Shown: piece after piece, positions 37,100 through 39,116 of the stretch | Position numbering within the stretch: the stretch's first letter is position 1 | Layout of the letters: every line of letters starts with the position of its first letter | DNA from: Xanthobacteraceae bacterium | GTDB lineage: Bacteria; Pseudomonadota; Alphaproteobacteria; Rhizobiales; Xanthobacteraceae | Direction: 5' to 3' | Assembly (NCBI GenBank): GCA_019635585.1 | Contig: JAHBZE010000001.1 | Span: 1,736,001-1,800,000, forward strand | DNA: 64,000 nucleotides | Notes under the pieces: generated by a model | The model's input: only the letters and a program-made list of their open reading frames with translations | Told to the model about the DNA's origin: nothing | Database searches by the model: none | Program-made: the position numbers and the translations under genes

Positions 37100-37121
37100 C
37101 GGCTTCGACCGGCTGAAAAGC

Positions 37122-37153
37122 AAAACGGGCGCCTCAAGAGGCGCCCGTTTCGT
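37122..37153. terminator. bidirectional terminator, leuC and Tyr-rich gene
   Basis: A 12-bp perfect stem (AAACGGGCGCCT 37123-37134 with AGGCGCCCGTTT 37139-37150) and loop CAAG. Plus-strand continuation is CGTT; minus-strand continuation is TTTTG. It lies between convergent leuC and the 37172 gene. Confidence 0.9.
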
Positions 37154-37171
37154 TCTCGGGTATTCGGGTTC

Positions 37172-37762
37172 TCAGAACCGCGAATAGATCGTGTTGTCGT
37201 CGTCGTTCTGCTGCGGCTGCCAGTATTGCTGCTTCACCGGCTGCGGCGCGTAATAATATTGATGCGCGCGGGCCGGATACTGCGGCTGAGCGACGTAGGT
37301 ATAAGGCTGCGCGTACTGCACATAAGTCTGCGGCGCCGCGTAGTAATAGGTCGTGGTCGCATAAGCATATGGCTGCGCGTAGGTCTGCTGTTGCACGTAA
37401 TACTGCTGCGGCTGCGCATAGGCGTACTGCGGCGCGTATGCGTATTGCGGCTGCTGCGCGTAGTAATACGGACGCGCGTAGTGAAAGCGCTGTGCGTAGC
37501 GATAGCGCGGACCATAGTAGTTCTGGTTCGCATAATAGTGATAGCGGCGCGCGTAGTTGAAGCGCTGCGCGTAGTTGTGGCGGTGCGAATAATGATGCCG
37601 CTGCGAATAGCGATGCGGGCGATAGCAGTTCGGATGATTGCAATTCGCCTCGATCGTATTCGTCTGCGCCGACGGCGCCTTCGCCGCGATGCGCGCGTCA
37701 GCGGCGGTCGCGAGCGTTGCAATCGCACCGGCGGCGGCGATCGCAAGCATGAGTTTTTTCAT
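37172..37762 (-). CDS. secreted Tyr/Gln/Ala-rich low-complexity protein
   Basis: A 196-residue protein with a signal peptide (about 1-23, ATAADA-R). A short segment follows with AKAPSAQTNTIEANCNHPNC, then an extended low-complexity region of degenerate repeats: YSQRHHYSHRHNYAQRF, RYAQRFHYARPYYYAQ, and many YA/QY/YAQP units. Tyrosine makes up roughly a quarter of the mature chain. The KAPS...NTI.A.C.H block matches the two smaller neighbours at 38285 and 38717, so it belongs to the same local family with an expanded C-terminus. An adhesive, surface or metal-binding role is speculation. Confidence 0.75.
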   Translation of the reverse strand: MKKLMLAIAAAGAIATLATAADARIAAKAPSAQTNTIEANCNHPNCYRPHRYSQRHHYSHRHNYAQRFNYARRYHYYANQNYYGPRYRYAQRFHYARPYYYAQQPQYAYAPQYAYAQPQQYYVQQQTYAQPYAYATTTYYYAAPQTYVQYAQPYTYVAQPQYPARAHQYYYAPQPVKQQYWQPQQNDDDNTIYSRF

Positions 37763-37882
37763 TGTAACGGCTTTCCCTGTTAACCATGTCTCGCGCGCAT
37801 TATTTCGTCTGGCGCGTGCACGCGAAAGCGAAAGCCGTTGGTATGGTAACCTGATATGGTAAAGTAGCGCCTTTGTAGGGGC

Positions 37883-38212
37883 TCAACGCCACGGCGACGC
37901 GAAATAGCGGTAACGCCAATAAGGCCAGCCGTAATAATAGTCGTCTGGCTTCCAGTAGAAGCGCTGCGCGTAATGCGGCGTGCCGCCGAAATAGCGATTC
38001 GGATAATAAAGCGGCGGCCGCGCGACGTAACGCAACGCCTTCGCGTTCGTGCAACGTCGCTGCGATGACCAGCGATAGTGATGGCAGACGCGGCTGTTGA
38101 CCTTTACGCTTTCCGATACGGCGACAGGCGCGGCACGGGAAATCGGCACGGCGCCGGCAACCGCAGGCAGAATCAACGCGGTCAGTGCCGGTGCGAGAAA
38201 AAGACTTTTCAT
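37883..38212 (-). CDS. small secreted His/Arg/Tyr-rich protein
   Basis: A 109-residue protein with a signal peptide (about 1-22). A segment SESVKVNSRVCHHYRWSSQRRC carries two cysteines and an H-x2-RWSS-x-RRC motif like that of the 38285 and 38717 genes (HRRWSSRWRC). The C-terminus is Tyr/Arg/Trp-rich (YYGWPYWRYRYF). The ATG at 38212 begins the signal sequence; the frame is open upstream through the adjacent terminator without support. Function unknown. Confidence 0.7.
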   Translation of the reverse strand: MKSLFLAPALTALILPAVAGAVPISRAAPVAVSESVKVNSRVCHHYRWSSQRRCTNAKALRYVARPPLYYPNRYFGGTPHYAQRFYWKPDDYYYGWPYWRYRYFASPWR

Positions 38213-38249
38213 CTCTTCTTCTTTAGTCGCCGCACGTATCCGCTTCAAC

Positions 38250-38284
38250 GAAAAACGGGCGCTCCTTCCGAGCGCCCGTTTCAT
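38250..38284 (-). terminator. intrinsic terminator of the 38285 gene
   Basis: An 11-bp perfect stem (38253-38263 with 38271-38281) lies 3 bp past the stop. The minus-strand T-tract (TTTTT) follows directly. Confidence 0.88.
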
Positions 38285-38548
38285 TTAGTGCCGGTGATGA
38301 TGGCGGCGATGATGCCAGTGGCGATGCCGGTGCCAGCGGTGCGGCTGGTAGTAGAACGGCTGCACATAATGGTGGCGGCGGAAGCAACGCCAGCGCGACG
38401 ACCAGCGGCGATGATAGCAACGCGCGCTCACGGTGTTGCTCTCGACGGAAGGCGCCTTGAGGCCGGAGACGCCGGCGCTTGCAGGAGTAGCGGATGCCGC
38501 AAGGCCAATGAAGCCAGCCGCCGCTACCGCGAGCAGGAGATTTTTCAT
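38285..38548 (-). CDS. small secreted His/Arg-rich protein
   Basis: An 87-residue protein with a signal peptide (about 1-25, PASAG). The shared block GLKAPSVESNTVSARCYH-RRWSSRWRC follows (two cysteines), then a His/Arg/Trp-rich tail with RHRHWHHRRHHHRH at the C-terminus, which may bind metal. Residues 1-55 are nearly the same as in the 38717 gene. The ATG at 38548 begins the signal peptide. Its terminator follows at once. Confidence 0.75.
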   Translation of the reverse strand: MKNLLLAVAAAGFIGLAASATPASAGVSGLKAPSVESNTVSARCYHRRWSSRWRCFRRHHYVQPFYYQPHRWHRHRHWHHRRHHHRH

Positions 38549-38670
38549 GCTGTCGTTTCTCTCTTTCTTTCCCATCGCACTCGAGAAAGTGCGGCATTTC
38601 TTCTGAACGTCGTGTGAGACCGTCATTCACGCCGGGTTCAACAAAATGGCGGTGACGCGGAATCTCAAAC

Positions 38671-38703
38671 GAAAAGCGGGCGCTTCAAGCGCCCGCTTCA
38701 TTT
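38671..38703 (-). terminator. intrinsic terminator of the 38717 gene
   Basis: Arms 38674-38683 and 38689-38698 (AAGCGGGCGC / GCGCCCGCTT) form the stem, extended by a T-A pair around a TCA loop. The minus strand continues TTC. It lies just past the stop at 38717. Confidence 0.8.
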
Positions 38704-38716
38704 TGCAGGCCGCGGA

Positions 38717-38929
38717 TCACCACCAGTGACGCGAGCGCCAGCGGCGATGCCAGCCGCGCTGACAAACCCAGCGCGAGGACCAGCGCCGGTGCCAGCAGCG
38801 CGCGTCGATCGTGTTGGATTCCACCGAGGGTGCTTTTAGTCCGGCAACGAAACCGGCATTTGCAGGTGTCGCGGTCGCGGCGAGACCGATGGCGCCGGCA
38901 GCTGCGAGCACAAGGGCGATATTTCTCAT
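38717..38929 (-). CDS. small secreted Arg/Trp-rich protein
   Basis: A 70-residue protein, the shortest of the local family. The signal peptide spans about 1-25 (PANAG). The shared block GLKAPSVESNTIDARCWH-RRWSSRWVC carries two cysteines and is followed by a tail RGWHRRWRSRHWW. Nearly half of the mature residues are Arg, Trp or His. Function unknown. It is the first gene of a four-member minus-strand cluster whose members mostly have their own terminators. Confidence 0.72.
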   Translation of the reverse strand: MRNIALVLAAAGAIGLAATATPANAGFVAGLKAPSVESNTIDARCWHRRWSSRWVCQRGWHRRWRSRHWW

Positions 38930-39116
38930 CGATGATTTCCTCCGTTCATTGGTTGAAGAGGGAAATCGTCAGCAACCTATTTCGTTCCTGTCGTGCGTTG
39001 CTTAACCGCAGATAACGTTTCAACCTGAACGATTGTTCAGGCTAGCGTCGGTTCGCTGGGCCGTTTTCTGCGCCACCGTTCCGGCGTTATAAGCGTGCAT
39101 CGCGGCGACCGTTCAA

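Follow-up and report, generated by a model that had tools for sequence, protein, structure and literature searches.

What are the four small genes that lie between leuC and leuD in this Xanthobacteraceae genome, and what could their products do for the cell? A sequence-only reading of the window (the whole 64,000-nucleotide stretch of DNA analysed) had described them as minus-strand genes for signal-peptide proteins, and all four are present as described, with the signal peptides called by a home-made heuristic rule, not by SignalP. P0001 (subfamily A1, 38717..38929, minus strand) encodes a 70-aa precursor whose mature part of about 45 aa has a pI of 11.9, a charge of +8, 9 Arg, 7 Trp and the cysteine pair Cys45/Cys56 (C-x10-C). 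P0002 (subfamily A2, 38285..38548, minus strand) encodes an 87-aa precursor with 13 Arg and 13 His in its mature part and cysteines at Cys44/Cys55. P0003 (subfamily B, 37883..38212, minus strand) reads CHHYRWSSQRRC...RPPLYYPxRYF, with Cys43/Cys54, while P0004 (subfamily C, 37172..37762, minus strand) combines the head KAPSAQTNTIEANC with a Tyr/Gln-rich tail (38 Tyr, 28 Gln) built of Tyr/Gln/Pro/Ala repeats. The likely ATG starts of P0003 and P0002, at 38212 and 38548, lie 3' of the longest-ORF starts. The GLKAPSVESNT[IV]xxARCxHRRWSSRWxC block reported for P0001 and P0002 was found again, as were KAPSxxxNTIxANC in P0004 and the CHHYRWSSQRRC segment of P0003. The predicted mature proteins have pI values of 9.5-11.9 and charges of +8 to +14, so that by the heuristic rule and by composition all four products look exported and very basic.

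Comparison with the closest sister species (G007, a Xanthobacteraceae MAG, JAHBZB010000001) reveals that the four ORFs are real genes under purifying selection, with dN/dS values of 0.06 for P0001, 0.11 for P0002, 0.27 for P0003 and 0.28 for P0004, and low values in most segments of both heads and tails. Under strict criteria the 64-kb window contains four such ORFs, all at this cluster, and the same criteria applied to 400 kb of the same genome return one doubtful ORF. Pfam, at E values up to 1, provides no family for any of the four products, NCBIfam no fitting one, and neither search finds an enzyme-like domain; a profile search of the head against the PDB gives no significant match. BA14k proteins (PF07886) are small secreted Arg/Tyr/Trp-rich proteins of Hyphomicrobiales that resemble the cluster products, but the latter have no match to that domain.

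The proposal that the four form one related family is borne out by a genome search with P0002, which finds the other three at E values of 1.8e-19, 1.3e-6 and 8.8e-5. An A-head profile retrieves P0004 (E 1e-7) and P0003 (E 1.2e-4), and with a B profile A genes from sister species are found at E values as low as 9e-11; these cross-matches, to whose scores the signal-peptide region contributes, therefore relate subfamilies A, B and C. The idea of a recent duplication does not survive the comparison. Each of the eight species in the genus has A, B and C genes; G007 has an orthologue of either A paralogue, and G002 shares the A1 type of promoter, which by sequence comparison makes the A pair older than some species splits. 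The A-protein tree is short and mostly unsupported, its usable part being the window/G007 orthologue pairs. Along the direction of transcription three species have the order A-B-C and the other five A-C-B, with an extra A copy at the end in one of these five (G005); in G006 a decayed A copy starts with ATT (L312). The set is an old one with slow turnover. Absence of homologues and loss of the reading frames had been named as outcomes that would count against the family, and intact homologues were found in 8/8 genus genomes and in other genera. In the homologue search subfamily B is confined to the genus, and clear A-head homology occurs beside leuC in G022 (E 6e-22) and G053 (E 1.5e-7).

Two further parts of the sequence-only reading stand in modified form. 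The tails do differ among the products, but this is not mere divergence, since purifying selection is seen in most comparisons of close species. The “fixed” cysteine head is conserved in the set, but cysteine spacing in subfamily C differs from that of the A/B heads, and a paralogue on a second contig (L120:923-1216) has a GLKxAPAVxSNTIDVR-type head devoid of Cys. The tail of this paralogue is Arg/Tyr-rich and ends in FGL, and it has an orthologue in G007 (L131). Another small secreted protein of the genome (L004:1495-1731), with NTTDVQYHHWRRHH, is encoded far away from leuC.

Conservation of the locus across the family, which the earlier reading had missed together with the operator described below, places the cluster in a wider frame. 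leuC was found in 139 of 141 relatives and the region behind it was read in 80; named loci were gathered by a genome scan with the zincin gene as query. The zincin-like metallopeptidase gene (PF06262; 39117..39557, plus strand) is the conserved far boundary, and the layout of leuC, counter-oriented small secreted genes, zincin and leuD is widespread in the family, the named genera being Bradyrhizobium, Nitrobacter, Rhodopseudomonas and Methylopila. A secreted Arg/Tyr/His/Trp-rich ORF facing leuC is present in 43 of 56 measurable leuC-to-zincin intervals (36 of 49 outside the genus), as against four of 56 with a secreted ORF in the opposite, co-oriented direction. Such ORFs number 86 in 71 kb of intervals and 8 in 400 kb of background taken from this genome, an approximately 60-fold higher density. 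Bosea has a short gap behind leuC and no such secreted genes there. Residents in other genera include proteins with TDVSARRR heads and YYRPYY...FGFGF tails, TTEVHWRRHHRHHW and RPSGTVIVPRMNCFW; as these are unlike one another in sequence, the link between genera rests on position and style. The cluster is a local, lineage-specific form of an older secreted-protein locus, on which our literature search found no paper.

Within the cluster, the terminators proposed behind the stops at 38717 and 38285 were found as hairpins with T tails, at 38672..38698 for P0001 (minus strand; folding z-score -4.8 for 38655-38716) and at 38250..38282 for P0002 (minus strand; z -5.2). The terminator said to be common to P0004 and leuC is likewise there, as a hairpin at 37118..37157 used by both strands (z -5.5 on the minus and -3.7 on the plus strand). 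A simple terminator scanner did not pick up these hairpins. P0003 has no terminator directly 3' of its stop. The 38250..38282 hairpin doubles as the P0003 leader, a layout that most of the eight species share, and in most species B genes begin 40-60 nt past a terminator hairpin, whichever gene lies upstream; this suggests either read-through or a promoter inside the hairpin region. An Rfam search returned sub-threshold STnc320 matches only, on the terminator hairpins.

Upstream of P0002, 55 nt before its ATG, lies the 37-bp candidate operator TGAACCCGGCGTGAATGACGGTCTCACACGACGTTCA (38604..38640, minus strand), composed of four TGAAY/RTTCA-type half-sites at 11-bp steps. This is the sole exact copy in the genome, P0003 and P0004 being without it. 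An upstream alignment of A2 genes gives the pattern TGAAC-N6-TGAAY-N16-RTTCA, which also precedes leuC-adjacent genes of other genera with identical spacing. Of the 141 relatives, 83 carry this pattern, while a reversed-pattern control gives 0, and it usually stands 65-100 nt before genes for secreted proteins. It is enriched before such genes: in other genera and families a secreted ORF follows 20-180 nt downstream at 38 of 67 sites, compared with 9.3% of random positions. A counter-oriented site no more than 2.3 kb past leuC is found in 16 genomes, 8 of them outside the genus. Across 640 kb of named loci, a TGAAY-RTTCA spacing of 16 yields 11 matches, all between leuC and the zincin gene, and the other spacings from 10 to 24 yield 0-3; as these loci were fetched for their leuC neighbourhood, the result describes placement and not a genome-wide rate. 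The other genes have elements of their own. Upstream of P0001 is a short palindrome, CTGAACAATCGTTCAG (39025..39040, minus strand), in which the operator half-sites are separated by a spacer of 4 and which is conserved in G007 and G002; upstream of P0004, the block TTACCAT-N7-GCTTTCGCTTTC (37824..37849, minus strand) is unique in the genome and invariant before the C genes of all eight species. Many family members are without the operator or without the Cys pair, and shared control is therefore partial. In one relative (G099, L224:669-16076), four tandem genes of curlin-repeat type each have a near-identical operator, 86-87 nt from the start, and the one gene tested matches PF07012.

Which regulator might bind here? 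TTCA-N7-TTCA has been proposed as the site of FeuP in Sinorhizobium meliloti (PMC3616915), where ndvA is an established FeuP target (PMC3616915, PMC5539429), NCR247, a cationic peptide, induces the FeuPQ pathway (PMC12714254) and SMc02366/67 form a second such pair (PMC5539429). The operator core TGAA-N7-TGAA is the reverse complement of this motif, and within the cluster the box is found before P0002 only, as TGAA-CCCGGCG-TGAA inside the 37-bp operator. Besides the copies before exported-protein genes, one relative (G083) has a degenerate copy, TGAAT-N5-GTTAA-N6-GTTCA, 65 nt before ndvA (product scoring 1073 bits), with three of the four half-sites, one of them imperfect; five other, more distant chvA-family genes have no site of the operator type. 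Unlike the FeuP motif, the two boxes are inverted here within a single 37-bp unit. Most likely, judging from the motif, the regulator is FeuP or a FeuP-like protein of OmpR type, and the position of the operator before exported-protein genes in other species hints at envelope-stress control. The genome contains 11 OmpR-type regulators, none assigned to FeuP. Proximity of the operator to response-regulator genes is seen in one case, in G099 (2.2 kb), which is about the chance level; there (L300:442-2621) a response regulator and a long ORF, probably a kinase, stand just before an operator-driven secreted gene, perhaps by coincidence.

Other regulators fit less well. The CenR regulon of Rhodobacter sphaeroides (TGA-N8-TGA) shares an 11-bp direct repeat and mostly extracytoplasmic targets with the present case, so that the spacing fits loosely, but the bases do not: CenR sites are mostly TSACGC...TGA, not TGAAC, and the inverted second box is absent (Table 1, PMC9275681). 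The Caulobacter LexA box, (T/A)TGTTC-N6-TGTTC (PMC13384398), is unlike the operator, whose half-sites are TGAAC, reading for the most part GAAC-N7-GAAT within the genus, and which has an inverted second box. Neither motif reported for ChvI, GCC-N8-GCC or TTGC-N3-GCAA (PMC9731502), matches it. The EcfG general-stress promoter has no matches in upstream regions of the genus and a few in other genera, and no RpoH or full CtrA sites were found in the upstream regions.

Taken together, these features are most plausibly explained by proteins that bind anionic polymers of the envelope, the pointers being the predicted export, cationic and aromatic composition, stapled hairpin and envelope-type switch. 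Confidence is low in the AF2 models of A and B (mean pLDDT 47 and 56), and in both models the two Cys face each other across a hairpin (41-47/52-58 in P0002 for A, 41-45/52-56 for B); the A and B heads are thus likely, on these models, to close into a disulfide-stapled, Arg/Trp-rich beta-hairpin. The locus would then hold a lineage-specific set of cationic-aromatic proteins at an old leuC-zincin/leuD site for secreted proteins. Each product would be exported, the A/B heads forming their hairpins and the tails staying flexible, and in the periplasm or at the surface the proteins could bind LPS, peptidoglycan or exopolysaccharide and so reinforce or shield the envelope. An OmpR-type response regulator, FeuP or one like it, would switch at least P0002 through the double TGAA-N7-TGAA operator; synthesis would in that case follow envelope, osmotic or cationic-peptide stress. 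To this joint reading, in which the proteins are cationic, bind the envelope and are in part controlled by a FeuP-type regulator, we assign a probability of roughly 0.4.

The same composition could be read differently. The His/Arg- and Tyr/Gln-rich tails might act as periplasmic buffers that bind protons or metal (Zn, Ni, Cu), in the manner of Asr or His-rich sponges, for which the 13 His of P0002 speak, as do a weak match of P0004 to the Asr model NF033636 (E 0.0068) and a weak likeness of a His-rich neighbour in Bradyrhizobium to ZrgA (E 0.094). We consider this unlikely: the mature parts of P0001 and P0003 have just three His each, with Arg and Trp/Tyr being what the set has in common, the upstream regions show no recognisable site for a response to metal or acid, and both scores fall far under their cut-offs (17.2 bits for P0004 against a curated 50 for Asr). 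Asr is, like the products here, a small, exported, repetitive and basic protein, but it is Lys/Ala-rich, a composition unlike that of P0004. A RiPP metallophore of the HvfA type was rejected, with one weak match (E 0.15, to the relative in G022) and no modification genes adjoining the cluster. Rather unlikely, too, is a role as matrix or fibre proteins whose Tyr/Gln/Arg-rich tails self-assemble or adhere like curli, with the operator serving an adhesion or biofilm programme. The repeats of the P0004 tail would suit it, and the operator is held in common with curlin-repeat genes of another family of the order, in G099, but a Pfam search finds no curlin repeat in the four products, the locus has no visible CsgG or secretion partner, and for fibre proteins the A products are short.

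A role of the A proteins as antimicrobial peptides, secreted against competitors as Arg/Trp hairpins stapled by Cys and diversified in an arms race, seems improbable. The small, cationic, Trp-rich mature P0001 with its C-x10-C pair recalls beta-hairpin antimicrobial peptides, as does the Cys-paired hairpin of the low-confidence A/B models, and copy number and gene order do differ among species; against this, selection is strongly purifying and not positive, no gene for immunity, processing or dedicated export adjoins the cluster, and long tails and Cys-less relatives are unlike such peptides. Finally, the genes could act through leuC, counter-transcription or the shared terminator tuning leuC while the peptides are incidental. 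The genes are convergent with leuC, share a two-way terminator with it and keep their orientation, but purifying selection on the proteins at codon level, the insulating effect of the terminators and a Bosea leuC with no such genes make this explanation very improbable.

We would tentatively, and at less than even odds, propose an order-wide envelope regulon of the Hyphomicrobiales in which a 37-bp double inverted FeuP-type operator governs fast-changing exported proteins of low-complexity and curlin-repeat type, the leuC-zincin-leuD gap being one ancestral home where new secreted proteins, the presumed disulfide-hairpin set of this genus among them, arise and turn over. The order is rich in small exported proteins with no family or function, and an operator that marks many of them, with a candidate regulator responsive to osmotic and cationic-peptide stress, makes these hypothetical proteins open to study as one regulon. 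Since the position stays fixed while its residents change, the locus is also well suited to tracing how short secreted proteins originate and diverge. On the other side of the zincin gene, before leuD, the window contains a gene for an HXXEE-domain membrane protein (PF13787, 39657-40163); in several relatives zincin and leuD lie much closer together, and this gene is therefore probably absent there.
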